A stretch of DNA of 39,465 nt, from positions 1-39,465 of the forward strand of contig JAFRXH010000083.1 of NCBI GenBank assembly GCA_017437785.1, read 5' to 3'. A model generated the notes under the pieces. It had not been told where the DNA came from and did no database searches. It saw only the letters and a list, made by a program, of their open reading frames with translations. Each line of letters begins with the position of its first letter. Position 1 is the stretch's first letter. A program made the translations under genes and the position numbers. Below are positions 19,186 through 32,503 of the stretch, piece by piece. This DNA comes from Lachnospiraceae bacterium. Its GTDB lineage: Bacteria; Bacillota; Clostridia; Lachnospirales; Lachnospiraceae.

Positions 19186-20034
19186 TCATACCTGCTCTTT
19201 ACCTGCATCCTTCTTATACAGAAGAAAATATGCTCCGAAAAATACAGCGCTGCCAAAGACCGCAACGACAACTTCCAGCATCACCGGCGATAATGCGATC
19301 ACTCCTGCCATCTGCAAACCTGCCACACTATCCATTACCGTATGCAGCAGAATAGCCAGCGGATAGAGCCAGAACTTCTTTTTATCTCTGCATGCATAAA
19401 AAACCAGGATCGAAGCACCGGTATGAAACATGAATGCAAATATACGTTCCACAACGTTGATAGCCAGATCTCCTGCCGAAAAGGCTGCCAGCTGCGCAGC
19501 TATCGCATATCCTTGAGCTGTCTGTTCCGGCGCCTGTGCCGCCACCTGAGCGATCATATCTCCGAAGGTTCCGGCGTTGATCATCGAAGCATAAGAGATA
19601 TACTGGATATAAGCTATCCCGAGCACAAACATCACCTCAAAGCCGCCGTGTCCGATACCGTGTGATATTCCGGTCTCACGGTTCTTCCTGTTTTTTAGCA
19701 CCGTCTTAAATGCCACCAGTCGTCCGGTCTCTTCAAACACTCCCGGGAAAAGTCCAACTATCAGCGCCCATAAAACAGGCCTTGCATTGATGAATTTAGC
19801 TGCCGCATGCTCGCTAAGCCCCATCATAGTCGGAAAGACCAGGATATTCTGCAACGGCTTTTCCAGTATAAGGGCAAACAGCAGAAAAGTTGCTGCTCCC
19901 GCAAGTACGCTTGTGAACTTCTCCTTTTTCTTTATGGTCCAGACGATCGCTATGATAAGCGGCACTACCGTGAACAGGATCGCTCCGCTCACCAGCAGTC
20001 CCATCCGGCTGTTTTCTATTTTTGAGAATTCCAT
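19186..20034 (-). CDS. YhfC-family intramembrane metalloprotease
   Basis: A 282-residue protein with about eight membrane segments. The motifs FEETGR, GIGHGGFE and the later LLHTVMDS supply Glu and His residues expected of the YhfC family, a glutamic/metallo-type membrane protease group related to PrsW and CPBP proteins. Substrate unknown. It is the first gene of the GntR operon and has AAGGAGG 7 nt before the start. Co-transcription with a YtrA regulator and a DUF1648-like protein suggests a regulated envelope function. Confidence 0.85.
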   Translation of the reverse strand: MEFSKIENSRMGLLVSGAILFTVVPLIIAIVWTIKKKEKFTSVLAGAATFLLFALILEKPLQNILVFPTMMGLSEHAAAKFINARPVLWALIVGLFPGVFEETGRLVAFKTVLKNRKNRETGISHGIGHGGFEVMFVLGIAYIQYISYASMINAGTFGDMIAQVAAQAPEQTAQGYAIAAQLAAFSAGDLAINVVERIFAFMFHTGASILVFYACRDKKKFWLYPLAILLHTVMDSVAGLQMAGVIALSPVMLEVVVAVFGSAVFFGAYFLLYKKDAGKEQV

Positions 20035-20082
20035 ATCCTTTACCTCCTTGACATTAAGCCATAAGTGATACTTATGTATTGT

Positions 20083-20143
20083 TTGTATTCTTTGTATTGC
20101 TCAATGTAATACAAAGAATACAACCTTAATAGCCCTTTGTCAA
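20083..20143 (-). promoter_or_regulatory. Promoter and GntR operator of the YhfC-GntR operon
   Basis: On the minus strand: TTGACA (20143-20138), 17-nt spacer, TATTCT (20120-20115). A perfect 16-bp inverted repeat, TTGTATTCTTTGTATT (20083-20098) and its complement (20108-20123), is separated by 9 nt and covers the -10 box and start region. Another TGTATT half-site lies at 20075-20080. Position and symmetry fit autorepression by the YtrA-type regulator of this operon. Confidence 0.8.
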
Positions 20144-20157
20144 GACCTCAATTCAAC

Positions 20158-22620
20158 TTATCCGCAAACAAACTCTGCCTTAGCTTCCGCAAAGCCCTCC
20201 GCATTTATGCAAAGAACGCATTTTCCTTTCTCGTAGCCCGATCTTAATACCAGCATGGCACGCCCGCGGTATGTACGCGCTTTATCGTCCGTATAATCTT
20301 CTTCGGTTACAGGCGCTGCAGAGCCAAAGCCTGCTGCCAGGCCCACTCCGCTTACTGCGGCATTCAGCTCCGTATCTGCATCAGGCACGATATTCCCGTC
20401 GGCATCGACTATCTCAATATTTACAAATATCAGATCATGGCCATCGGCACGCATCTTATCCTTTTCTGCAGCTATGCGTATCTTTTCTGCTTTCCCGGTA
20501 GTATGCAGACTGTCCCTGCTTATCTCCTTACCGCCGCTGTAGCTTACGGCAGTCACTTCGCCGCTCTCATATACGGTCTCAAAACGCACGCTGCAGGGCA
20601 TGGGACGATCTGTGCATACAGCCCTGCGTCCTAAGCTGCGTCCGTTTATAAGTATCTCCACCTCTTCTGCCGCAGAAAATACCACCAGTTCCACAGGCCT
20701 TCCTTCATATCCCGCGTAGTTCCAGTCAGCGCGTACATAAGGAAAGCCCCACATGCTGACCACCTCGCGCTTGCCAAAGGTATCGGGATGCATGGAATAA
20801 AGCTTTGTTTTCCCGTTCCCCCAGACAATGCTCCTGTATTCTCCCTGCGGGCACTTATGACCTGTGATATCAAAATCCGCATCATTTGCCAGACGCCAGG
20901 GATACGGTGAGGTATCCTGAGGCATAAGATTCCATGGATTCTTGGGAGCATCAGGATCATCCGGATCAACATAGGCCGCTTTGCCCAGTCCCGCTTCACC
21001 GATATAATCCCAGGCTGTCCATGTAAAATCACCGATAACATAAGGCAGTTTTTCCACCATGGGCCAGCGGAAGCCTATTTCCTTGGGGAAATTCTCCGAT
21101 CCCAATATGACCCTTCCGGGGAACATCTCATGATCCCTCTCATAGATCTCTTCCATGTAGTTGTATCCCACTACATCCAGACCGTTGGTAAAAGGCTCCG
21201 TGCCGTTCTCCCACAAAAGCGATCTGAAGCCGTCTCCGGCATTCTGGGCCTGATTCTGCCCTACAGCCAGTTTATCATCCAGACCGCTCCAGAAGGAGCA
21301 TATACCGTTACTGATGGGGCGTGAGCCGTCCAGCGCCCGCACTGTCTCTGCCAGCATCGTGGCACGTCTGTATCCATTGGCAAGCCCGCCGCGCTCGGGT
21401 ATCTCATTTCCTGTCGACCAGAGTATCACGCAGGGATGCACCCTGTCTCTTTTCACAAATGCAGTAAGGTCCTTCTCCCAGTCAGCCAGGAAGAACTGAT
21501 TATAATCACCGCCGCGTTTGCCGATAAACCAGGCGTCAAACGCCTCGTCAAAAACATACATGCCTATCCTGTCACAGGCTTCTATCAGAGCCGCAGAAGG
21601 CGGATTATGTGCTGTTCTGATCGCATTAAATCCGGCTTCCTTAAGCCTCCTTACCTTTCTTTCCTCTATCTCCCTAAAGCTCACAGCGCCTAAAAGGCCG
21701 TTGTCATGATGCAGGCATCCGCCTTTAAGCTTAACGCTCTTACCGTTGATAAGAAGTCCGCGGATAGGGTCTGCTGATATGGTCCTTATCCCAAACAGCG
21801 CCGCAGCTTCATCTGTACTCACTTCATCACCCGGCTCAAAATGGGTGCGGTATTCTCCCAGGTTGCGTACCCGCGCCTTTACACAATACAGATCAGGCTG
21901 ATCGGCATCCCATAAAAGCGGATCCTTGACGCAGAGCGTCATCCGCGCGTTTTCGTGCATGCGCCGCCCTATATATATCACGCGTTTCGTTTCCGCCGCA
22001 GCTTCCTCACTCCCTTCCGGATAAAGGCTAAGTGTCACCTCGGCCATGCGATTTGAATCACAGTCGTTTTCAATCTCGATCAGCGCCTCCAAAAATGCAT
22101 ATCCGTCAGCCACTTCTTTTGTATATACATAAATGCCGTCAGCCGCTACATGCAGACGCGGTGCATGACATAGCTGCACGCAGCGGTATAAGCCCGATCC
22201 CGTATACCAGCGCGATGCAGGCTGCATGGAGGTATTGACATTGACACTTATGCGGTTTTCTTCCCCGAAAGTCACATGATCGCTCAGATCCACATAGAAC
22301 GGGGCATAGCCGTTATGACACATTGCCACGCGGCTGCCGTTTACGTCAACGCTCGCATTCATCATGGCTCCGTCAAACTTAAGTCCCACCGAATCATTTT
22401 CCCATTCCTTCGGGAAAAAGACATATTTGGTGTAACTAAAAAGCCCTCCGCAAAAATATCCCGAATCAACTCCCGCAGGAGCATCCGGTGAAACGCTCGT
22501 TCCTATCATGCCGTCATGCGGCAGATCAACCTCTGTTCCCGGATCGGCCTCCAGCATAGTGATAGAATCCAGATAGCCTCTCCTGAATGTCCATTTCTCA
22601 TCAAGCGCTGTGATCTTCAT
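20158..22620 (-). CDS. Glycoside hydrolase family 2 (beta-galactosidase-like)
   Basis: An 820-residue GH2 enzyme without signal peptide, so probably cytosolic. An N-terminal jelly-roll sugar-binding domain (about 1-170) and an Ig-like domain precede the TIM barrel (about 280-600). The acid/base Glu406 is in WSTGNEIPERGG and the nucleophile is probably Glu509 in LGSENF. The C-terminal part is a further Ig/DUF4982-like region. Members hydrolyse beta-galactosides, beta-glucuronides or related linkages; the specificity is not readable here. The start at 22620 follows AAGGAGG. It lies 18 nt after the GNAT gene, probably in one operon with it. No terminator is visible before the next promoter. Confidence 0.9.
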   Translation of the reverse strand: MKITALDEKWTFRRGYLDSITMLEADPGTEVDLPHDGMIGTSVSPDAPAGVDSGYFCGGLFSYTKYVFFPKEWENDSVGLKFDGAMMNASVDVNGSRVAMCHNGYAPFYVDLSDHVTFGEENRISVNVNTSMQPASRWYTGSGLYRCVQLCHAPRLHVAADGIYVYTKEVADGYAFLEALIEIENDCDSNRMAEVTLSLYPEGSEEAAAETKRVIYIGRRMHENARMTLCVKDPLLWDADQPDLYCVKARVRNLGEYRTHFEPGDEVSTDEAAALFGIRTISADPIRGLLINGKSVKLKGGCLHHDNGLLGAVSFREIEERKVRRLKEAGFNAIRTAHNPPSAALIEACDRIGMYVFDEAFDAWFIGKRGGDYNQFFLADWEKDLTAFVKRDRVHPCVILWSTGNEIPERGGLANGYRRATMLAETVRALDGSRPISNGICSFWSGLDDKLAVGQNQAQNAGDGFRSLLWENGTEPFTNGLDVVGYNYMEEIYERDHEMFPGRVILGSENFPKEIGFRWPMVEKLPYVIGDFTWTAWDYIGEAGLGKAAYVDPDDPDAPKNPWNLMPQDTSPYPWRLANDADFDITGHKCPQGEYRSIVWGNGKTKLYSMHPDTFGKREVVSMWGFPYVRADWNYAGYEGRPVELVVFSAAEEVEILINGRSLGRRAVCTDRPMPCSVRFETVYESGEVTAVSYSGGKEISRDSLHTTGKAEKIRIAAEKDKMRADGHDLIFVNIEIVDADGNIVPDADTELNAAVSGVGLAAGFGSAAPVTEEDYTDDKARTYRGRAMLVLRSGYEKGKCVLCINAEGFAEAKAEFVCG

Positions 22621-22638
22621 ACACTCCTCCTTTATACT

Positions 22639-23121
22639 TTACAGATCTTTTAAATAGAATCTGTTCATCGTACTGTGTACTACTTCCGCAGGTCTCTCTA
22701 TCAGGGTATAAGCGCTCTTTTCGTATATATGAATGGCAGCTTTTAAATTATCATGCGTTTCAAGATAAGAGCGTTTAAATCCGGCTTTGCGCATCTTGGT
22801 CTCAATGAAGTCAAGCATCTCGTATCCAAGCCCCGCTCCCTGCATGCTCTCATCAAGGTATAATTTCTGCAGCTCGGCGGTATCCTTCATAAAAGAAAGC
22901 CGCGCAAATCCCACACCGCCGATAAGCTTCCCGTTCTTATCATCAATAACGTAATAAGCGCAGTCTTTTCCGCTGTATACATCACTCAGATGATCCAGCC
23001 CTTCATCAAAATACGCCGTTCCCGGGATATCCAGGGCATAGGCCTTAAGCGTCTTTCTGATAAGCGCTGCTATCGCTTCATTATCGCTCTCCGTTATTGG
23101 TCTTATATTGAAATCTTCCAT
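22639..23121 (-). CDS. GNAT N-acetyltransferase
   Basis: A 160-residue single-domain GNAT. FNIRPITESDNEAIAALI opens the fold, AELQKLYLDESMQGAGLGYEM is the beta4/acetyl-CoA-binding segment with the Q/R-x-x-G-x-G/A-type loop (QGAGLG), and LETHDNLKAAIHIYEKSAY is the motif B end. Substrate unknown. It precedes the GH2 gene by 18 nt. The ribosome-binding site is not close (GGGAGA about 12 nt upstream), but the next ATG would remove part of the fold. The promoter lies in the shared intergenic region with the divergent cassette. Confidence 0.88.
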   Translation of the reverse strand: MEDFNIRPITESDNEAIAALIRKTLKAYALDIPGTAYFDEGLDHLSDVYSGKDCAYYVIDDKNGKLIGGVGFARLSFMKDTAELQKLYLDESMQGAGLGYEMLDFIETKMRKAGFKRSYLETHDNLKAAIHIYEKSAYTLIERPAEVVHSTMNRFYLKDL

Positions 23122-23181
23122 GATCCATGTGTTCTCCCGATAACATTTTTACATACATTACAGATAAAAGATAGTTCTTAA

Positions 23182-23210
23182 AATGTACTTCACTTTTAAT
23201 CCCCTGTCAA
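23182..23210 (-). promoter_or_regulatory. Putative promoter of the GNAT-GH2 operon
   Basis: On the minus strand: TTGACA (23210-23205), 17-nt spacer, TACATT (23187-23182). The -35 box overlaps the left arm of an inverted repeat GTCAAGC(12 nt)GCTTGAC at 23206-23231, so one bound protein could control both this promoter and the divergent cassette. Confidence 0.55.
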
Positions 23211-23256
23211 GCGAACGTAAGCATGCTTGACGACTTATAAACGGCTGAAGTATTAT
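23206..23256 (+). promoter_or_regulatory. Inverted repeat and possible promoter of the plus-strand cassette
   Basis: The inverted repeat GTCAAGC/GCTTGAC spans 23206-23231. Its right arm begins a plus-strand promoter-like pair: TTGACG (23227-23232), 18-nt spacer, TATTAT (23251-23256). If real, transcription starts near 23263, inside the longest reading frame of the first cassette gene, which would move its start codon downstream. Confidence 0.4.
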
Positions 23257-24381
23257 TATTATCATGAATCAAAGATACGGAGTAAAGCTGATTTGACTGA
23301 AAACAGTATCCTTAATCAAATAGCGTCTGTTAACGATCTGCACATGATCCGTTTCTACCGGCTCTTTAGCGAAAACGGCCCCATATGCGGAATCTTAGCA
23401 TACTATCAGGATAAGACCATCAATCTTTGTACGGCTGATGCGCATTTTTATGAACTGTTTGACCGCATCGTCAAGGTATATGAACGTGAATCTTCCCAAA
23501 AGACGATAATAACGGACGACGAAACACTCAGGGTATTATCCGGTGCCGGCCCCTTTTCCGAAGACATTTATCAAAAAATGCTGTCCGGATATAAAAAGAC
23601 CTTCACGCCGGTTATCGCCCCGAAAGCTTTTACTTACATTTATACACTTCCGATCATAAAGTATATCATACAAACGCTGTATGAATCCCCCGAATCCGGT
23701 ATAAGTTTCGATATCGTCAGAAAGCAATGCTTCAGCCGGGGTATACTTGATGCATATAAAAACGGACAAAGCCTGCATTTTCCTTACCAGATAAAAACGC
23801 CATCCGACCACCGCACCGAAGTAAGTGTTCTTAACGTGCTTTCAGCCGGTAATTCCTTAAGTATCATTATCACATTCGGAATGGATGGTCTGAATGTTTC
23901 ATATTCCGACCGGTATTACCGTTATCACGGGGATATGGTTTATCATCCCGCAAACAACCTTGCCCTTATGCAGCACAGCTTATGGAAGGATGAAACACAG
24001 GTTTTCTGCAGGGAAAGCGAATATCCCGCCGATCCCGGTATCTCCCCCTCCGGTCGTATCTGTGCCATCACAGGCATAGAACGCGATAGCTTTTGCGCCA
24101 CTGCTCTGCCCTGGGGTGGCAGTATGTTCAGCGCAAAAAAAGCCGGTAAGGATTACCGGATCTATTATTCGCAGGAAGATGAAATGGGCATCAGTCTGTG
24201 TCTGTGCTGTCAGAACTTAAGCGCAGATGATGAGCCCCCTATCCCTTTCATGCATTACGCCCTGCGCCTGTACGAGCGCTCCGATATATGCGAACTGCAT
24301 ATGCTTGATGCAAAAGCTCCCGGCTCCGGGTCATATCAGGATAATTACGCAGGAAATTACTATACCATAGCGGCAGGCTGA
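23227..24381 (+). CDS. Unrecognised protein, first gene of AAA+/VWA-like cassette
   Basis: A 384-residue protein from the TTG at 23227. I do not recognise a family. It has no signal peptide or clear membrane segment, is rich in Tyr, and alternates alpha and beta stretches; the C-terminal half is beta-rich with many Cys and Tyr residues. The start is uncertain: TTG 23227 has no ribosome-binding site and overlaps a promoter-like sequence, while the in-frame TTG at 23293 has GGAG 10 nt upstream, giving about 362 residues. An ATG at 23344 is also possible. It sits 50 nt before the ATPase gene on the same strand and is probably co-transcribed. It may be the cassette's cargo, sensor or effector; this is inference. 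Confidence 0.7.
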   Translation: MTTYKRLKYYYYHESKIRSKADLTENSILNQIASVNDLHMIRFYRLFSENGPICGILAYYQDKTINLCTADAHFYELFDRIVKVYERESSQKTIITDDETLRVLSGAGPFSEDIYQKMLSGYKKTFTPVIAPKAFTYIYTLPIIKYIIQTLYESPESGISFDIVRKQCFSRGILDAYKNGQSLHFPYQIKTPSDHRTEVSVLNVLSAGNSLSIIITFGMDGLNVSYSDRYYRYHGDMVYHPANNLALMQHSLWKDETQVFCRESEYPADPGISPSGRICAITGIERDSFCATALPWGGSMFSAKKAGKDYRIYYSQEDEMGISLCLCCQNLSADDEPPIPFMHYALRLYERSDICELHMLDAKAPGSGSYQDNYAGNYYTIAAG

Positions 24382-24431
24382 TCTTTTACAGGATCCGCAT
24401 TAGCCTGACTTTCCTTAAGGAGAAAAACGAA

Positions 24432-26618
24432 ATGGAAAACCAGTACTCAAATGTCAGTAAGATATCCACAGGTATAAAGCTCAGTAAGCTCCTTGATGAT
24501 CTTAAGGATGATCTGTCAAAACCCTTTTTAAAATCGGAGGCACTAAAGGATCTGATCGACAAGCTTGACCGTATCAGACGCGGTGATGAGGAACCTCCCG
24601 TAAAGCCTCTCGCCCTTTATATAGATATCATGGAAACGCTGCGTAAACAGGCTACACTAAAGAGCACCTTTCCGGCTCTTGTCTCAAATGCAGAAGAAAT
24701 ATACGCCACTCTCTTCCTTTACGGAGAGAATACTCCGGAATTCGATAAAACGGTAGAGATCTTTAAAATGCTTACCTGCGATAACGGACTGATCATGAAG
24801 GGATTCTATGACGCTTTTTTGTTTGCTTCCTTTAGGGATAAATCCGATTATCTTACACTGGTACAGCTCATATCCATGCAGAACAACGCCATAAAGATCT
24901 TTGAATGCATAAAAACCCATGCCCTCGATGCCAGAGCATTCTTTATCGATGATACGGCATACATGTCATATCTTTTGACGCTGGTTAACAGGATGACTTC
25001 GCTAAGCCCCGACATGTATGAAAATTTTCTGAAAGATGAACTATGGAAGATCGCGCGCAGCAACGGCATCTATGATATAGATCCGGTACGTCTGGCTCAG
25101 GTCGAAAAAAACGTGCACAGCGCAGAGATCACAATAGAGAACGGCAAAAACATCTTAACGGCATTGGAGCACAGGGGCCGTGAGATCGAGCAGCTGGCAG
25201 ATGAAGCGGATAAAAAAGCAAAAGAGTCCGCACGCAGTGCCGAACTGTATCTCGATACAAAGGTAAAGAACGCTACCGCCGGCCTTGACAGCATATTAAC
25301 CGAATATACCGCCCGCCAGAAAGAAAGCATACATCTTGAAAAAGAAGCATTCTTAAAAGAACTGTTTGCCGAAGCCCAAAGCGAACTTGATAAATACACC
25401 GCTCTCGCCAACAGTCTTACCGGTACCACAGCAGCTAAGATAAATTCGCTGAGCCATGATGCCGACGATGTGATACGCCGGCTTAACGCTGCCGCACATA
25501 CCAATGAGGAGATAAGCGCGCGCACAGAACAGATGCGTGCGGACCGCGAGCTGCTCGACAAGATAGCCAGGCTTTCCATCCTGAATGAAGGAATGATCGA
25601 TCATCTGTGTACTGAAGCAGCATCCGGATCCGAAAAAGCTCCCGCAGACGTCGCAAAAGATTCTGCGCCCGTCAAGAGCTCCCGTGTGATCAAAGAAGCC
25701 AATCCGCTGCTCGACCGCCGTGTTCCGTTCAGGGAAAGATTTGCCCTCGCCATGAAAGAAAAAGAGCGCCGTATAAAAGAAGGCGAGCTTTTTCATGAGA
25801 TGTTCGATGATGTTCTCACTGCGGTAATGGAAGAGGTTAACCCTTATCTTATCGGTCCCTCCGGCTGCGGCAAGACATATATGGTAAAACAGATAGGCGA
25901 TATCCTTAATGCAGACATGACAGATATAGGCTATATCAATGAGGAATACGATATCTTAGGATATGTTACCGCTATGGGAGAATACAGCGAATCAAACTTC
26001 TACAGGCTTTATAAGTATGGCGGCATCGCCTTCTGTGATGAGCTTGATAACGGTAACAGCAAAGCTACGGTAAAGCTTAATTCCTTCCTCTCCAACCAGC
26101 TGCGTGCCGGTTATTGTTTCCCGGGAGGAGAATATGTTGAAAAGCACCCTGATTTCCGCATAGTTGCTGCGGGAAATACCGACGGAAGCGGCGCGGATCT
26201 GAACTATAATACCAGAGAACGTATAGAAGAATCCGTTCAGCAGCGTATGATCCCTATCTACATCAGCTATGATAACCGTGTGGAACAGGCTATCCTTAAA
26301 GACTACCCTGACTGGTTTGAATTCTCCTGCGCTTTCCGTGCTGCCACCGATCGCTGGGGAGACGTGAGCAATATCCCTGCGCAGGGTATCTTTACCACCA
26401 GGGATGCCTACCGCATAAAGCAGTATCTTGATAACGGCAGTTTTACGCCTGATAAAATAATGAACTATGAATTCGTCCAGACAAAGGATATGGAATACCT
26501 TGCCTTTTTAAAAGACGAGATCTCCAAGCGCCTGAAAAAAGACTCGGCTGCATACGGCATCTGGAACTTATTTGCATCCGAAACGGACCGCATCCGTAAA
26601 TGCGGTAAACGAAGCTAA
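24432..26618 (+). CDS. Coiled-coil MoxR/CbbQ-like AAA+ ATPase
   Basis: A 728-residue protein. The first roughly 210 residues are helical and not assignable; about 215-390 is a long Ala/Glu/Lys-rich coiled coil; about 440-728 is an AAA_5-type AAA+ domain. Walker A is GPSGCGKT (475-482), Walker B is AFCDELD (533-539), sensor 1 is AAGNT with Asn582, and RERIEESVQQRM is a likely arginine-finger region. The spacing and the PDFRIVAAGNT and CFPGG stretches resemble CbbQ/GvpN-like and phage-encoded MoxR ATPases. Such ATPases remodel partners together with a VWA protein, which is what the next gene seems to encode. The start at 24432 has AAGGAG 9 nt upstream, and the stop overlaps the next start (TAATG). 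Confidence 0.88.
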   Translation: MENQYSNVSKISTGIKLSKLLDDLKDDLSKPFLKSEALKDLIDKLDRIRRGDEEPPVKPLALYIDIMETLRKQATLKSTFPALVSNAEEIYATLFLYGENTPEFDKTVEIFKMLTCDNGLIMKGFYDAFLFASFRDKSDYLTLVQLISMQNNAIKIFECIKTHALDARAFFIDDTAYMSYLLTLVNRMTSLSPDMYENFLKDELWKIARSNGIYDIDPVRLAQVEKNVHSAEITIENGKNILTALEHRGREIEQLADEADKKAKESARSAELYLDTKVKNATAGLDSILTEYTARQKESIHLEKEAFLKELFAEAQSELDKYTALANSLTGTTAAKINSLSHDADDVIRRLNAAAHTNEEISARTEQMRADRELLDKIARLSILNEGMIDHLCTEAASGSEKAPADVAKDSAPVKSSRVIKEANPLLDRRVPFRERFALAMKEKERRIKEGELFHEMFDDVLTAVMEEVNPYLIGPSGCGKTYMVKQIGDILNADMTDIGYINEEYDILGYVTAMGEYSESNFYRLYKYGGIAFCDELDNGNSKATVKLNSFLSNQLRAGYCFPGGEYVEKHPDFRIVAAGNTDGSGADLNYNTRERIEESVQQRMIPIYISYDNRVEQAILKDYPDWFEFSCAFRAATDRWGDVSNIPAQGIFTTRDAYRIKQYLDNGSFTPDKIMNYEFVQTKDMEYLAFLKDEISKRLKKDSAAYGIWNLFASETDRIRKCGKRS

Positions 26619-27529
26619 TGAAACTGAAACCCGTCAAATTTGAATACGACAGCAAAATATACAACACCTACCGCATAGCATTTAATTCCCTTACTCAGCT
26701 GGAACTGTTTTTAGCGTCCTCTCCGGCGGTAAATAAGGAGATCTTCCCCACCCAGAAGAGCATCGTAATGCCTGAAGATTTTGCGGGAGCTCCGCTGCCT
26801 GAAGCGATAGCTTACTGCCACGGCGGCTACGAAAAGGGGTTTAAGCTGTTTCTGAAACTGAAAAAAGATCTGGAGAATGTAAACCCCAGAGCCACCAAAG
26901 TGCGGCGCAGCAGGCCTTCCGTAGTAGGTTCACGTCCTCATGTCCCGAACTTTGTGGCCGGCACACCCAAAACCATGTGGCGCCTTGAAAGTGTCGAAGA
27001 GAAAAACTTTACGGATGTATATATCAATCTTGTATACAGCGGTGATACTTCTGAAGAACAGATCAGGAACAGAGGGATACTCGTCCTTAATATGATAAAT
27101 CTGTTCGAGCAGAACAATATTGCGGTAAATCTGTGTGCTTTCGAAGCCAGCATGCATAAAAATGAGATATTCATCGCCGATGTACGGCTTAAAAAACCCG
27201 GTGAAGTCCTTAATGTAGGCAAATGCTACTACCCTCTGTGCGGCAGGGAATTCGTAAGGCGGCTGCTTCTTCGGGTCAAGGAATCCATACCCTTTAAAGA
27301 AAAATGGGGAATAGGCTATGGCGTGGGGCTTCCGCCCGATATGCTCAAAAGCCTTATGGGTATCGGTGAAAACAAGATACTGATACGTTCTCCGGGTGAA
27401 ATGGGTATAAAGGGTAACGATATTTTTGAAGATGCGGATACATTCTTTAAAAAGCTGGGATTATCCGACAATATACAAATTCCGCAGTATGGTGACTACA
27501 AAGAGGGAAACATCAATGAACAGAGATGA
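26618..27529 (+). CDS. VWA-like protein with degenerate MIDAS, partner of the AAA+ ATPase
   Basis: A 303-residue soluble protein. After an N-terminal region (1-95) comes SVVGSRPHVPNFVAGTPKTM (101-120), a motif I associate with VWA-like proteins encoded beside MoxR-type ATPases, notably in phages. Next is VYINLVYSGDTSEEQIRNRG, ILVLNMINLFEQN and IAVNLCAFEA (about 134-177), matching beta1-alpha1-beta2 of a VWA fold, but the metal-ion site DxSxS is not conserved (NLVYS). So a structural adaptor that has lost metal binding is likely. The gene overlaps the ATPase stop by one base (TAATG) and the next gene by 14 nt, indicating tight translational coupling. Family assignment is by pattern only. Confidence 0.72.
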   Translation: MKLKPVKFEYDSKIYNTYRIAFNSLTQLELFLASSPAVNKEIFPTQKSIVMPEDFAGAPLPEAIAYCHGGYEKGFKLFLKLKKDLENVNPRATKVRRSRPSVVGSRPHVPNFVAGTPKTMWRLESVEEKNFTDVYINLVYSGDTSEEQIRNRGILVLNMINLFEQNNIAVNLCAFEASMHKNEIFIADVRLKKPGEVLNVGKCYYPLCGREFVRRLLLRVKESIPFKEKWGIGYGVGLPPDMLKSLMGIGENKILIRSPGEMGIKGNDIFEDADTFFKKLGLSDNIQIPQYGDYKEGNINEQR

Positions 27530-28133
27530 GTATACATCACCCGTATCGGTATTAAGCCACGGACTGGATAAGCAGAACAGACTGGCATCCCTTAACGCAC
27601 TGCTCTCCGAACGGATCAACAATTCCGATCAATCATCAATACATCGGATGTTTGATGAACTGCTGTCAATAGCCGAGGATGCCGGCAGTTCCGGACTGGC
27701 CGAAAAGGAAGAGCGTCTGGATACACTAAGCGGTAAACTTTCCCGCAGCCGTATCGAACTGTTAAAAGAAGCCGAGCTTTTAGACGCGATGCGTATGACA
27801 AACGACAGTTATATATCCGCTCTTGAAGATGATATAACAAAGGCGCAGGAATACCTTAAAGCAGGAATAGAGGATGGTAATCCCGATGCGCGCGTCATAT
27901 ACGATACAATGGAGAAACGTTTACAGGAATTAAGTGTTACGAGAAGCGTCGGCATCAGCTTCTCCGAACAGATCAAGTACTCAAGATCAAACCTTTTATC
28001 ACTGTCCGAACGCATACGTGATGTTCAGATGAACCTTATCCCACTGCTTCGCGGAAGGATGTCCGCTGAAGCATCAAAGGTCACCTGTGACGCTCTGCGC
28101 ACGATGATAGTAAATATATTCCGGGGCGCTTAA
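27516..28133 (+). CDS. Helical coiled-coil protein with TelA-like C-terminus
   Basis: A 205-residue, nearly all-helical protein. The C-terminal stretch RSVGISFSEQIKYSRSNLL (about 143-161) and what follows (SLSERIRDV, MNLIPLLRGRM) resemble the last part of the toxic-anion-resistance protein TelA, where a conserved R-T/S-hydrophobic-Q-x-x-x-Q-I-x-x-x-x-x-N-N segment precedes I-P-x-W/L. It is about half the length of TelA (roughly 360-400 residues). The start at 27516 has AGAGGG 7 nt upstream; a longer frame to 27426 lies inside the previous gene. Its stop overlaps the convergent transporter gene by 4 nt. TelA homology is tentative; a coiled-coil scaffold or membrane-stress component is the inferred role. 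Confidence 0.75.
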   Translation: MNRDEYTSPVSVLSHGLDKQNRLASLNALLSERINNSDQSSIHRMFDELLSIAEDAGSSGLAEKEERLDTLSGKLSRSRIELLKEAELLDAMRMTNDSYISALEDDITKAQEYLKAGIEDGNPDARVIYDTMEKRLQELSVTRSVGISFSEQIKYSRSNLLSLSERIRDVQMNLIPLLRGRMSAEASKVTCDALRTMIVNIFRGA

Positions 28134-30160
28134 GCCGCCACGCTTTCTTTCTTTTTTGCATGCATCAGTAATAATCCCGCACCCAGCAGTACCACACCCG
28201 CAAATAAGAATATCAGTACTCCGGTAACATCAAGCTCACCTTCCAGAAAAGGCAGCTTCTTTGTGAGCTCTTCCTGATACTGTTCAAGCAGCAGCGAAGT
28301 AAGGTTATTAAGGAAATGGAGCAGCATCGTAATAAATATGCTCCTCTCCTTCCACACAATATAGGATAAAAGTATGCCAAGCGGGGCAATGGTTATAAAC
28401 TGTAAAAGGCTCATATGAAAAGCTGCAAAGAAAAGGCCGGTCAGGATAACCGCCACTGCAGGTTTAAACTTAAACTCAAAGCTGCCCAGCATAAAGCCCC
28501 TGAATGCAAACTCCTCGCATACCGCCGGCATCAGCGCACTTGATAATACCATAAGCCACATGGGTGAATCCTCCCACAGGGAAGTCAGCACCTGTGCATT
28601 TTCCTGTGAAAGATCCGGGAATAATCCGACCACCAGATTAGCCAGGAGCTGCACCAGAAGATACATCCCCGCCCACGCGAGTATTCCGGCGATCATCGCC
28701 GTGATACGTGGTCTATGCAGATGAAATACCACCTTCATATCTGTCTTGATATACCAGGCATAGGCTGCCGTAACCGCAAATATCAGAAGCTGCTCCGCAA
28801 CCAGTCCCCATAGTCCGAAACGTAAAACCAGCAGTCCGCCACCGAAGAGTACGATTATTATAAGCGCCGCAAATACCAGTACCAGATCTCCCATTCCCGG
28901 TATCTGCTTCTCCTTCATGTGACTCCTGTTTTCCAAAAGCCTTAAGCTGACCGTAGCATCCCCGAAGAGGATATTCTCCGACGAGAAGAGCCTGCCCATG
29001 ATGACAACTGCAACCGCTGTGTATGCCAGGTTTGACAAAAGTACCACGGCTATCTGCGACAGTTCAAAATGGAATTTAAATATCTCGGTGATAAGCATTG
29101 CTATATTAACAACGGGTATCATAGCCGTAACAGGATCAAGCGAAAGCTGAGGAAGCATACCTGCCATTCCGCCCACCATAAATACCAGCATTACAGGCGT
29201 TGTGAAATTCTGTGCCTCCTTAAAGCTGCGGGCAAATATGCATGCCGAAAGACACACTGCCGAAGCAAACATAGCAAATGTAAACACGCAAAGCAGTGTC
29301 ACTATCAGCGCCGGTATAAACGAAGCCAGATCAATGCCGGAAGAAGAACCCATATTACCTGCACTCACCATGTAAAATCCCATGAGCGCCATGGATATAA
29401 GGTTTAAGAAAGCAGCTCCCACAGCCACGGTGGATGTAGCCATGAACTTTGCCACTATAAGCTCAAGATTTTTAACCGGCAGTGTAAGCAGGGTTTCGAG
29501 CGTACCGCGCTCCTTCTCTCCCGCAGTTGCATCTATAGCCGGATACAATGCTCCCATAAGGATACTGGTTATAAGCAGAAAAGGCACTATCATCCCAACC
29601 ACATACCCTGCATTTTCTTCCTTTGATGACAGATCCCTGTATGTATAATCGATAGGCTTTAATACCGCTTCCGGTTCAAGCCCCAGCTCCTTTATTTTTT
29701 CCTTAGTGGCATCTTTCTGTATATCCTGCAGTATATCCTTTATCATCCCCGATGCTGTCTGCGAATCGGTCTCCGATGCCAGATAAGCGATCTCGTAATA
29801 GGGCTTGTTATCCGATACGCTTTCGATAAGATACGCATCTATATTGCCCTGTTTTAACTGTTCCTCCTCATCGTCTTTTCCCGATTCCGGCCTGTAATAG
29901 ATAAAGCTGTAATCATGTTCATCTTTAAAACGGTTAAACGCATCCACCATTGCCTGCTCATCCGCAAGATTTTCAAATCCTATCATATAGGATTTGCTGG
30001 TTGAAGCCTTGAGCATGGATGAGGCCAAAAACATCGAGCCTGCAAATATCAGCGGATACAGGATCAGAGGGATAACGATCATCATAAGGATGGTCTTCTT
30101 ATCCCTTAAGATATCCAGCATTTCTTTTTTATACAGCGAAAAGATGACTTTCTTACGCAT
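28130..30160 (-). CDS. NatB-type ABC-2 permease fused to a CPBP intramembrane protease
   Basis: A 676-residue membrane protein. The first part (about 1-400) is an ABC-2/NatB-type permease: KKEMLDILRDKKTILMMIVIP start, a large extracytoplasmic domain, then five membrane segments including GEKERGTLETLLTLPV. The second part (about 430-676) is a CPBP/Rce1-like domain with CEEFAFRG, FAAFHMSLLQF and LLHFLNNL, the Glu/His motifs of the family. This fused architecture is known in Firmicutes Nat-like exporters. The start at 30160 overlaps the ATPase gene by 8 nt. The 3' end overlaps the convergent TelA-like gene by 4 nt. The substrate could be Na+ or a peptide. Confidence 0.9.
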   Translation of the reverse strand: MRKKVIFSLYKKEMLDILRDKKTILMMIVIPLILYPLIFAGSMFLASSMLKASTSKSYMIGFENLADEQAMVDAFNRFKDEHDYSFIYYRPESGKDDEEEQLKQGNIDAYLIESVSDNKPYYEIAYLASETDSQTASGMIKDILQDIQKDATKEKIKELGLEPEAVLKPIDYTYRDLSSKEENAGYVVGMIVPFLLITSILMGALYPAIDATAGEKERGTLETLLTLPVKNLELIVAKFMATSTVAVGAAFLNLISMALMGFYMVSAGNMGSSSGIDLASFIPALIVTLLCVFTFAMFASAVCLSACIFARSFKEAQNFTTPVMLVFMVGGMAGMLPQLSLDPVTAMIPVVNIAMLITEIFKFHFELSQIAVVLLSNLAYTAVAVVIMGRLFSSENILFGDATVSLRLLENRSHMKEKQIPGMGDLVLVFAALIIIVLFGGGLLVLRFGLWGLVAEQLLIFAVTAAYAWYIKTDMKVVFHLHRPRITAMIAGILAWAGMYLLVQLLANLVVGLFPDLSQENAQVLTSLWEDSPMWLMVLSSALMPAVCEEFAFRGFMLGSFEFKFKPAVAVILTGLFFAAFHMSLLQFITIAPLGILLSYIVWKERSIFITMLLHFLNNLTSLLLEQYQEELTKKLPFLEGELDVTGVLIFLFAGVVLLGAGLLLMHAKKKESVAA

Positions 30161-30953
30161 CCTCACCCTCACTTTCCGCGCTCTTTGCCCCACTGTCGAT
30201 TATAGCCCTGAAGGTCTCACGCAGATTGTCGGTCTTAGTCTGCTCCATAAGCTCATCCGGTGATGCATTGGCTATGATACGTCCTTTATACATCATGATA
30301 ACACGGTCGCACAGATACTGTGCCTCTTCCATGTAATGGGTAGAATACAGAACAGTCCTGCCTGCATCCTTCTCGCTCTTCATAAAATTTACTATTGATT
30401 CGCTGCTTAAGATATCAAGCCCCAGCGTAGGCTCATCAAAGATATATATACCGGGAGAATGGACCAGACACCTGGCGATATTGGCTCTCTGCGTCTGTCC
30501 TGTGGAAAGCCTCTCGATACGGTTATCCACGAAATCCTGCATCTTTAAAACTTCAACTATCTGATCTATACGCGCAGCAGCACTTTCCTCATCCATACCG
30601 TATATCTCACTGATAGTACGCATCATCTCTCTGGCCGAAAGCCTTCCGTAGAGTCTGGTATTCCCGGACAGATAGCCTATACAGCTCTTTATACGTATGG
30701 GATCGGTGATACGTTCTCCCTTATCGTCTATTATATGCACGAAGCCCTCACCGGGCTCCAGCAGATTTCCCAGCATACGAAGCAGCGTGGTCTTTCCGGC
30801 CCCGTTGGGTCCCAGTACTCCCAGTATCTCACCTTCATGGGCATCTATGTCCACATGATCCACCGCAAAAAACTCTTCTTTACGGCTTTTTTTATCCTTG
30901 TCATTTACAAGGCGTGTGAAACTCTTGCATAAGGCTCTGGCTTCTATTCTCAA
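30153..30953 (-). CDS. NatA-type ABC transporter ATPase
   Basis: A 266-residue ATPase with Walker A GPNGAGKTT (about 49-57), signature LSTGQTQR, Walker B IYIFDEPTLGLD and switch His in STHYMEE. It pairs with the permease/CPBP gene that overlaps it. The start is a TTG at 30953 preceded by GGGGAT about 8 nt upstream; no in-frame ATG precedes the first beta-strand. It lies about 70 nt after trmD, in the place where rplS is often found in Firmicutes. Confidence 0.9.
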   Translation of the reverse strand: MRIEARALCKSFTRLVNDKDKKSRKEEFFAVDHVDIDAHEGEILGVLGPNGAGKTTLLRMLGNLLEPGEGFVHIIDDKGERITDPIRIKSCIGYLSGNTRLYGRLSAREMMRTISEIYGMDEESAAARIDQIVEVLKMQDFVDNRIERLSTGQTQRANIARCLVHSPGIYIFDEPTLGLDILSSESIVNFMKSEKDAGRTVLYSTHYMEEAQYLCDRVIMMYKGRIIANASPDELMEQTKTDNLRETFRAIIDSGAKSAESEGEDA

Positions 30954-31022
30954 GATCTTATCCCCGCGTATAAAAGATTTTTGCTTCGCTTAGATGAGTG
31001 CAGCATTTTTGAAACGTATTTT

Positions 31023-31823
31023 TTAACCGTTCTGCTGCTGCCTCTCAAGTTTCTTTCTTTCTTTTTCAAGCTTCTTTCTTAAAGCCGCAAGTTCTTCAGC
31101 ATGCGTCCTTTCGTATTCCTCATACAGATCGGGACGCCTGTCTTTAGTGCGTTCCAGCGACTGCAGCAGGCGCCAGCGGTCAACTTTTGCATGATCCCCG
31201 GATAAAAGTATCTCCGGCACCTTTTTCCCCATCCACTCTTCAGGCCTTGTATACTGTGGATACTCTAACAGCCCTTCGTTAAAGCTCTCAGTGGTAGCGG
31301 ATTCATCATTATTGAGCACACCGGGTATCAGACGTGAGATACTGTCCATCATCACCAGCGCGGGCAATTCCCCTCCCGTCAGTACATAATCCCCGATGGA
31401 TACGTTATCGGTCACTATCTCCTCAAGCACACGCTCATCTATCCCTTCATAATGACCGCATAGAAATATCAGATCATCCTCTTTTGCGAGTTCCTCTGCC
31501 AGTGCCTGGTCAAACACCCTGCCCTGCGGAGTCAGATAGATGACACGCTTTTTACCTGCGCTTTTTCCTTCCTGCGCAGCTCTCTTTGCTATGGTGTCCA
31601 TGACCGCCCTGTAGCAGTCATAAACCGGCTGGCACTGGATCAGCATACCCGCGCCGCCGCCATAGGTATAATCATCTACCCTTTTATGCCTGCTTTCAGT
31701 ATATTCTCTGATATGGAAACAATCAAGAGAAAGAATCCCCTCTTCCATGGCCCGGTATAATACACCCGTATGCATTCCCTTGTCTATCAGCTCGGGAAAG
31801 AGCGTCATCACATAATATCTCAT
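31023..31823 (-). CDS. trmD: tRNA (guanine-N1)-methyltransferase TrmD
   Basis: A 266-residue SPOUT methyltransferase that makes m1G37 in tRNA. It starts MRYYVMTLFPELID, has the conserved DDYTYGGGAGM, FLCGHYEGIDERV and ISIGDYVLTGGELPAL-type knot motifs, followed by the EYPQYTRP segment. The final roughly 25 residues are a Lys/Glu/Arg-rich helical tail. Its ATG overlaps the stop of rimM (ATGA), so translation is coupled. Length is close to the family norm plus the tail. Confidence 0.98.
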   Translation of the reverse strand: MRYYVMTLFPELIDKGMHTGVLYRAMEEGILSLDCFHIREYTESRHKRVDDYTYGGGAGMLIQCQPVYDCYRAVMDTIAKRAAQEGKSAGKKRVIYLTPQGRVFDQALAEELAKEDDLIFLCGHYEGIDERVLEEIVTDNVSIGDYVLTGGELPALVMMDSISRLIPGVLNNDESATTESFNEGLLEYPQYTRPEEWMGKKVPEILLSGDHAKVDRWRLLQSLERTKDRRPDLYEEYERTHAEELAALRKKLEKERKKLERQQQNG

Positions 31824-32323
31824 AAACCTTCCATTACCGAAACATCTATCCGGCCTTCCTTTATATCTACATTAAGTATGCATTGCTTTATCGCCGGAAG
31901 CAGCACTTCGCTCCCGTCCGTTCTCTCTATACGATATACGTCATTGGCTCCGGTCCTTAAGACTTCTGCCAGTGTACCTATCTTTTCATCATTCTCATAT
32001 ACATCCAGTCCTTCCAGATCGGAGATATAATATTCATCCTCATTAAGCGGCACGGCATGCGCGCGGTCGACAAACAGTTCTTTTTTCCGCAGCTTCTCTG
32101 CCATATCCCTGTCAGTTATCTCTTTAAACTTTAAGATGATACGGTCATTTTGCAGCTTCATGCCCTGAAGATGAAAAAGCTCCATCCCCTCCGAAGTATT
32201 CATGTAATACTCTTTAACTTTTTTCAGATGTGCTGCATCATCCGTTGTAGGATAAACCTTCAACTCACCGTGTACGCCATGCGGTTCGGTTATGACACCT
32301 ATCCTGAAGTATTCTTCTGACAT
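31820..32323 (-). CDS. rimM: 16S rRNA processing protein RimM
   Basis: A 167-residue RimM. FRIGVITEPHGVHGELKVYPTTDD is the N-terminal RimM domain signature. The C-terminal PRC-barrel half shows YYISDLEGLDVY, GTLAEVLRTGANDVY and LLPAIKQCILNVDI. RimM binds S19 and helps mature the 30S head. The start at 32323 has AGAGGG 8 nt upstream. A 191-nt gap with a terminator and structured repeats separates it from khpA, which is unusual for this operon. Confidence 0.97.
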   Translation of the reverse strand: MSEEYFRIGVITEPHGVHGELKVYPTTDDAAHLKKVKEYYMNTSEGMELFHLQGMKLQNDRIILKFKEITDRDMAEKLRKKELFVDRAHAVPLNEDEYYISDLEGLDVYENDEKIGTLAEVLRTGANDVYRIERTDGSEVLLPAIKQCILNVDIKEGRIDVSVMEGL

Positions 32324-32338
32324 ATATTATCCCTCTTT

Positions 32339-32465
32339 AAGATTCTTCGCTTCGCTCAGAATGACATTGTTTAACCTGTGCAATCGAGTAGGGAAGACGA
32401 AGTCACACCCTACTCGCGCGCGGGTCGCCGGTTGCCGTCAGGCAACGTTTTCCTTTCGGCGACCC
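32339..32465 (-). repeat. Structured repeats in the khpA-rimM gap
   Basis: Three palindromic units follow the khpA terminator. These are GGGTCGCCG/CGGCGACCC (32422-32465) enclosing GTTGCC/GGCAAC, CGAGTAGGG/CCCTACTCG (32385-32416) around a 14-nt loop, and a GATTCTTCGCTTCGCTCAGA-type unit (32341-32360). I recall the last as a dispersed repeat in unrelated bacterial genomes. They form part of the 5' leader of any rimM-trmD transcript. Confidence 0.65.
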
Positions 32466-32470
32466 TGTGC

Positions 32471-32503
32471 ATATAAAATGCCCGGAAAAAGACTTCCGGG
32501 CAT
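32471..32503 (-). terminator. Intrinsic terminator after khpA
   Basis: On the minus strand: ATGCCCGGAA, short loop, TTCCGGGCAT, then TTTTATAT. It begins 11 nt after the khpA stop. It separates ylxM-ffh-rpsP-khpA from rimM-trmD, so either rimM-trmD has its own promoter or read-through is partial. Confidence 0.85.

Follow-up and report, generated by a model that had tools for sequence, protein, structure and literature searches.

What is the function of four tightly packed plus-strand genes that lie between minus-strand neighbours in the genome of a Lachnospiraceae bacterium? The genes are carried by contig JAFRXH010000083.1 (assembly GCA_017437785.1; the whole stretch of 39,465 nucleotides is referred to as the window), and an original prediction had described them as a cassette of an unknown protein, a MoxR-like AAA+ ATPase, a VWA-like partner and a TelA-like protein. 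The four genes are nearly certainly a real and co-inherited unit, and the analysis supporting this, together with a tentative mechanism and its rivals, is given below. The genes, with coordinates in the window, are as follows (ORF, open reading frame).

23227..24381, + strand: gene 1, 384 amino acids, as listed in the ORF table
24432..26618, + strand: gene 2, 728-amino-acid AAA+ ATPase, probably MoxR-type, with a long N-terminal region
26618..27529, + strand: gene 3, 303 amino acids (PF23822, 1.4e-20; phrog_1909, 2e-21), predicted vWA fold
27516..28133, + strand: gene 4, 205-amino-acid C-terminally shortened TelA paralogue (PF05816)

A co-inherited four-gene unit

Loci related to the cassette were collected with gene 2 as the query against 84,980 species genomes; since the search required exact peptide words, the count is a minimum in which close relatives are favoured. 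The resulting 79 loci were all from Clostridia, mostly Lachnospiraceae with some Oscillospiraceae, and the carriers include gut bacteria and the commensal Eubacterium ruminantium ATCC 17233 (locus L066). By profile search, with profiles built from those same 79 loci, 68 of them carried all four genes in a single order and on one strand, and genes 1, 2, 3 and 4 were present individually in 74, 79, 75 and 73 loci, respectively. In 10 of the 11 incomplete loci the absent gene falls at or beyond a contig end, and in the eleventh (L072, 10050-10817) gene 2 is broken near a contig end by a transposase-like sequence, which we take to be of IS200/IS605 type. Either a frameshift or an error in assembly has left the ATPase gene of another locus (L014:8001-10236) in two overlapping frames. 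A phmmer pass with the window proteins only (E 1e-4, window included) gave 63 gene 1, 81 gene 2, 75 gene 3 and 60 gene 4 proteins.

Among 35 genomes of the host genus, genes 1, 2 and 3 were each detected in an identical set of 12, most of which also belong to the 79 loci, so that the two counts are not independent. Among 250 genomes of the family, genes 1 and 3 were found in the same 3 genomes. Among 392 genomes of the order (two candidates scored per genome), the ATPase profile matched 4 at 1e-30; the fourth of these (G926) encodes a 356-amino-acid ATPase with no match to gene 1, 3 or 4 within the 8 kb taken. Gene 3 matched 2 of 391 genomes of the class, one of them weakly at 8e-12 (up to five candidates per genome), and the DUF7192 model matched a single genome, the host's own, among 398 of the phylum. 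The cassette is thus rare and patchy from genus to phylum samples. Chance neighbourhood was considered and is excluded by the fixed order in the complete loci and the identical presence sets.

Pairwise distances of the four genes were compared across 62 cassettes (61 loci and the window), and correlations of 0.71 to 0.96 were obtained against a shuffled maximum of 0.16, which indicates that the genes are inherited together. This set, also used for identities, leaves out L013, L041 and L014, four loci whose ORFs were not recovered (L011, L018, L045 and L062), and loci truncated at contig ends. Mean identity across cassettes was 25% for gene 1, 31% for gene 4, 43% for gene 2 and 49% for gene 3. 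The cassette closest to that of the window (L006) comes from a sheep-rumen Lachnospiraceae metagenome-assembled genome, and the Oscillospiraceae cassettes (n = 4) group as one supported clade.

Within the window, both flanking genes are on the - strand (22639-23121 and 28130-30193), and the intergenic distances of 50, -1 and -14 nt suggest that the four genes form one operon. The last distance holds for a gene 4 start at ATG 27516, versus TTG 27426 in the ORF table; at its other end, gene 4 shares 4 nt with the convergent gene downstream. For gene 1, TTG 23227 is merely the first start codon after a stop, and TTG 23293 looks likelier (GGAG at 23279-23282). The layout given in the original prediction, with four plus-strand genes, these gaps and oppositely oriented neighbours, is thereby borne out by the ORF coordinates. 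The prediction had also named, as evidence against itself, ATPase homologues that mostly occur alone; close homologues were found to keep their partners, as counted above in the 79 loci and in the genus, whereas distant viral ones do not.

The four proteins

Alignments A1-A4 contain 55, 60, 54 and 42 chosen sequences, not all relatives (gene 3, 60; gene 4, 54; gene 2, 42), and the following features of genes 2 and 3 were located in the window.

25089..25631, + strand: gene 2 residues 220-400, proline-free amphipathic-helix or coiled-coil-like stretch
25854..25877, + strand: Walker A GPSGCGKT, residues 475-482, invariant in 42/42 rows
26025..26048, + strand: Walker B IAFCDELD, residues 532-539, with D536 and E537 invariant in 42/42 rows
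26175..26177, + strand: sensor 1 Asn582 in AAGNT, invariant in 42/42 rows
26909..26986, + strand: gene 3 residues 98-123, conserved G-x-x-P-x-V-P...G-x-P-x-x-M segment flanked by two predicted strands
27005..27478, + strand: vWA-like domain, gene 3 residues 130-287, with both metal-site aspartates gone

Gene 2 matched AAA_5 (3.3e-10) and phrog_249 (1.2e-33), and AAA_5 was found in all 42 relatives, in which several arginines are invariant besides the three motifs listed. Against PDB sequences, the window protein was nearest to CbbQ/NorQ (3e-4 to 0.009), whereas the profile of the 42 relatives matched ClpX and a helicase entry instead (about 5e-4); the bpMoxR model gave weak matches in 9 of the 42 (best 1.4e-4). 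Gene 2 is an AAA+ ATPase; since these PDB matches are divided and the bpMoxR matches weak, "MoxR-type" is its most fitting name but not an established one. No family was reliably matched by the N-terminal 430 residues. Residues 220-400, one of the seven stretches tested, had a periodicity of 3.45-3.6 residues (p = 0.007 by shuffling), a measure that cannot separate a coiled coil from another amphipathic helix.

Gene 3 matched DUF7192 (PF23822) with 74.2 bits (cut-off 27), and its predicted structure has a vWA alpha/beta fold that aligns best with the vWA domain of NorD. The columns of the metal-ion-dependent adhesion site (MIDAS) were picked from the strands of the predicted model; at the end of strand 1 (columns 138-140) aspartate occurs in 0 of 60 sequences at each column, and at the end of strand 4 (columns 257-259) in 1, 0 and 0 of 60, whereas D272, beyond these columns, is invariant. 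As judged from the model, gene 3 is a vWA-like partner without the metal site. Ahead of this domain, six residues between 104 and 120 are invariant in the 60 rows, and the G-x-x-P-x-V-P...G-x-P-x-x-M pattern recurs in 8 of 8 aligned viral DUF7192 proteins (8 of 9 loci; L115 was left out as near-identical to L114). A finger of NorD has been proposed to insert into the NorQ pore (PMC9976466), and by that analogy residues 98-123 are a candidate pore finger.

Gene 4 of the window matched TelA (PF05816) with 33.0 bits (cut-off 30) over profile positions 96-233 of 332; judged from this match, it keeps the TelA middle, has lost the C-terminal part and is not a full-length domain. A TelA match at 0.01 was found in 53 of 54 cassette gene 4 proteins (best 1.4e-94), which are about 200-250 amino acids long in the window's group and about 350 in many remote groups. 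A second, full TelA (407 bits) is encoded on another contig of the host, 25 nt from an XpaC-type gene according to the ORF calls, so the cassette TelA is a second copy. This standard TelA and the adjoining XpaC-type (Halogen_Hydrol) gene lie at L138:6232-8989. PMC12791056 connects TelA with tolerance to nisin and tellurite and states that its mechanism is not known, and a passage of PMC7824862 proposes that TelA forms sub-membrane structures.

Searches with gene 1 of the window gave no match up to E 1 in Pfam, NCBIfam or PADLOC, and its best PHROG stood at 0.018; in Pfam the XpaC-type Halogen_Hydrol family was likewise not matched up to E 1. Outside cassettes, no convincing relative was found in Pfam, PHROGs, phages (one relative as query) or plasmids (window protein as query). 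In its confident AlphaFold model (predicted local distance difference test score 90.9, predicted template modelling score 0.85), a large antiparallel beta domain is accompanied by a helix and a small alpha/beta part, and the structural matches of the model are generic beta meanders and barrels. Gene 1 is a cassette-specific beta-rich protein.

Most protein assignments of the original prediction stand: no family was found for its "unknown protein", AAA_5 agrees with its MoxR-like AAA+ ATPase, Walker A, Walker B and sensor 1 are intact, and the predicted fold and MIDAS columns bear out a VWA-like gene 3 with a lost metal site, so that the lack of a VWA-like fold, which would have counted against the prediction, was not seen. 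Two points are kept in part. Helical periodicity agrees with its long coiled coil, a structure not distinguished here from an amphipathic helix; and gene 4, described as resembling the end of TelA, is indeed a TelA homologue, but it matches the middle of the profile and is not the end of TelA.

Relatives, known systems and genomic surroundings

An adjacent AAA and DUF7192 pair, homologous to genes 2 and 3, was found in nine viral loci (Kayvirus Stab20, one Enterococcus phage and 7 viral contigs). In 8 of the 9 the order is that of the cassette; in the Enterococcus phage vB_CECAV_04 (L087:5698-8147) DUF7192 precedes the ATPase. By profile, neither gene 1 nor TelA/gene 4 was detected in the nine loci, and the viral ATPases are 387-521 amino acids long versus about 700-770 in cassettes. 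Single-gene tblastn searches hit 25 phage records when gene 3 was the query and 427 when gene 2 was. On viral contigs, a scan with the window gene 2 gave no relative, a profile scan with gene 2 at least 25 loci, and a profile scan with gene 3 seven loci, all with AAA and DUF7192. The phage pair (phrog_249 and phrog_1909) thus resembles the cassette in homology, adjacency and order, and differs from it in the shorter ATPase and the missing gene 1 and TelA. In Vibrio and Shewanella plasmids a more distant AAA gene lies beside DUF3150 and VWA genes; these modules resemble the cassette in that AAA and VWA are clustered with a third gene, but the ATPase matches are weak (1.6e-9 and 5.7e-6) and none was found for gene 1, 3 or 4.

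With NorQ-NorD, CbbQ-CbbO and RavA-ViaA the cassette shares an AAA+ gene next to a vWA-like partner gene, and the nearest members are those noted above, NorD in fold for gene 3 and CbbQ and NorQ in sequence for the window gene 2; unlike them, it lacks the metal-site aspartates, has a long ATPase N-terminal region and is linked to TelA and gene 1. In MoxR-vWA ternary conflict systems, as described in parts of PMC7159879, an AAA/vWA core is likewise joined to further conserved partners (VMAP, iSTAND, FtsH, beta-propeller), and a subset of the vWA domains described there also lacks one or both aspartates. In contrast to these systems, Pfam revealed neither a third component of this kind nor a fused effector in the cassette: no VMAP, iSTAND, FtsH or beta-propeller domain was detected in genes 1 and 4, with no dedicated profiles for divergent VMAP and iSTAND. 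The term TelA does not occur in the main text of PMC7159879. The XpaC-TelA operon (YaaN / Lmo1967 type) shares the TelA homologue, but the cassette has no XpaC-type partner and a shortened gene 4, and its host has that pair elsewhere. No paper joining MoxR/vWA, DUF7192 and TelA was found among those listed in searches of open-licence literature, and we know of no name for the four-gene combination, a variant of the MoxR-vWA kind with TelA and gene 1.

Comparison of window positions 20001-32000 with the 79 loci showed that DNA similarity is confined to 23291-28083. Flanks are common within groups of related cassettes, other groups sit elsewhere, and at least eight distinct surroundings were counted manually among the 12 genus carriers. 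Of 122 neighbours, 117 were used (long L035, L037 and L055 and short L073 and L079 were left out; L013 and L041, near copies of L012, were skipped), and the biggest neighbour cluster (single linkage, anywhere in the flanks) covers 11 loci. At most 7 of the 117 neighbours matched PADLOC at 1e-15 (mad3, 3; mad2, dGTPase, LmuB and AriA, 1 each), a count without a background rate. The commonest neighbour Pfam families were GGDEF (7) and shikimate kinase (4), and no integrase, transposase or phage structural gene was among the 25 of 125 families listed. Group-specific flanks and ordinary neighbour families speak for a module of the chromosome that is passed on within clades, with gains and losses between them; they give no support for a defence island or prophage, a setting that the original prediction had offered as an option.

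In the host genome (3.2 Mb, 107 contigs), a GNAT acetyltransferase and a family 2 glycoside hydrolase are encoded upstream of the cassette, and an ABC-2/Rce1-like membrane protein and an ABC ATPase downstream. Farther along the window, the intergenic sequence at approximately 32375-32481 is a repeat, about 110 nt long, that contains two strong hairpins (fold z -4.3); it has 22 more full or partial matches in its own genome and 10 in a genus relative, and no match in Rfam.

Proposed mechanism and its rivals

We propose, tentatively and with grounds and doubts almost in balance, that the cassette encodes a MoxR/vWA remodelling machine dedicated to its TelA paralogue, probably at the membrane, with gene 1 as a partner and a role in envelope stress. 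Gene 2 would assemble as a MoxR-type AAA+ ring, on which gene 3, as a vWA-like adaptor without a metal site, would dock, and the G-x-x-P-x-V-P segment may be inserted into the ring pore by analogy with the NorD finger in NorQ. Through gene 3 the ring would act on the dedicated TelA paralogue as a client or membrane arm, and gene 1 may serve as a specificity, sensor or structural partner. The probable site is the inner membrane face, where TelA-containing structures would be assembled or dismantled upon envelope stress; RavA-ViaA, in the portion of PMC9489729 concerned with it, is a precedent for a MoxR-vWA pair acting at membrane lipids. That the cassette represents a separate MoxR-vWA class, in which a TelA paralogue and a new beta-rich protein were added to a phage-type AAA/DUF7192 pair to give an ATP-driven remodeller of TelA structures at the membrane, is a possible but doubtful extension.

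The NorQ/CbbQ relationship of gene 2 and the NorD-like fold of gene 3 would also suit a NorQD/CbbQO-like maturation or assembly machine, in which TelA would be the scaffold and either gene 1 or an enzyme complex encoded elsewhere the client; gene 1 is large, beta-rich and the first gene in 68 of 68 complete cassettes. As most cassettes have no further gene in common in their surroundings (the widest neighbour cluster being that of 11 loci), and gene 3 lacks the metal-dependent site through which NorD docks, we regard this reading as unlikely. Another rival is an anti-phage or inter-bacterial MoxR-vWA conflict system, in which the AAA/vWA pair would set a threshold, gene 1 would be a rapidly evolving sensor or effector, and TelA would alter the membrane to block entry. 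The ternary systems of PMC7159879, as far as sections of that source describe them, are a precedent, and the weak bpMoxR matches of 9/42 ATPases, the lowest mean identity of the four in gene 1 and the patchy distribution (12/35 in the genus) point the same way. However, the best PADLOC matches of the window's four proteins were only 0.004 and 0.065, no nuclease, NADase, peptidase or pore-forming domain exceeded its Pfam cut-off in them, and neither the few PADLOC neighbours (for which a background rate is lacking), the ordinary character of the 25 of 125 Pfam families shown, nor the flanks common within related groups fits well with it, which makes it improbable.

Capture of a phage AAA and DUF7192 pair, kept for a phage-like job such as virion assembly or a cobaltochelatase-like function, would account for the homologous pair in Kayvirus Stab20, the Enterococcus phage and the 7 viral contigs, and for the tblastn matches in phage records; viral CobS/CobT pairs are described in part of PMC8651126. 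This origin as an explanation of function is very improbable, given the absence by profile of gene 1 and TelA from the nine viral loci, the longer cassette ATPases, and the lack of phage structural genes among the neighbour families shown.

On the preferred reading of a TelA-dedicated remodelling machine, the cassette offers a concrete, testable partner set for TelA, in which a paralogue is joined to a MoxR/vWA remodeller, and it extends the MoxR-vWA range by an adaptor without a metal site and a gene 1 family without a detected relative. TelA proteins occur well beyond the cassette-bearing group (3 of 14 control genomes), and a separate class of TelA remodellers, if true, would give a direct clue to the control of TelA proteins.
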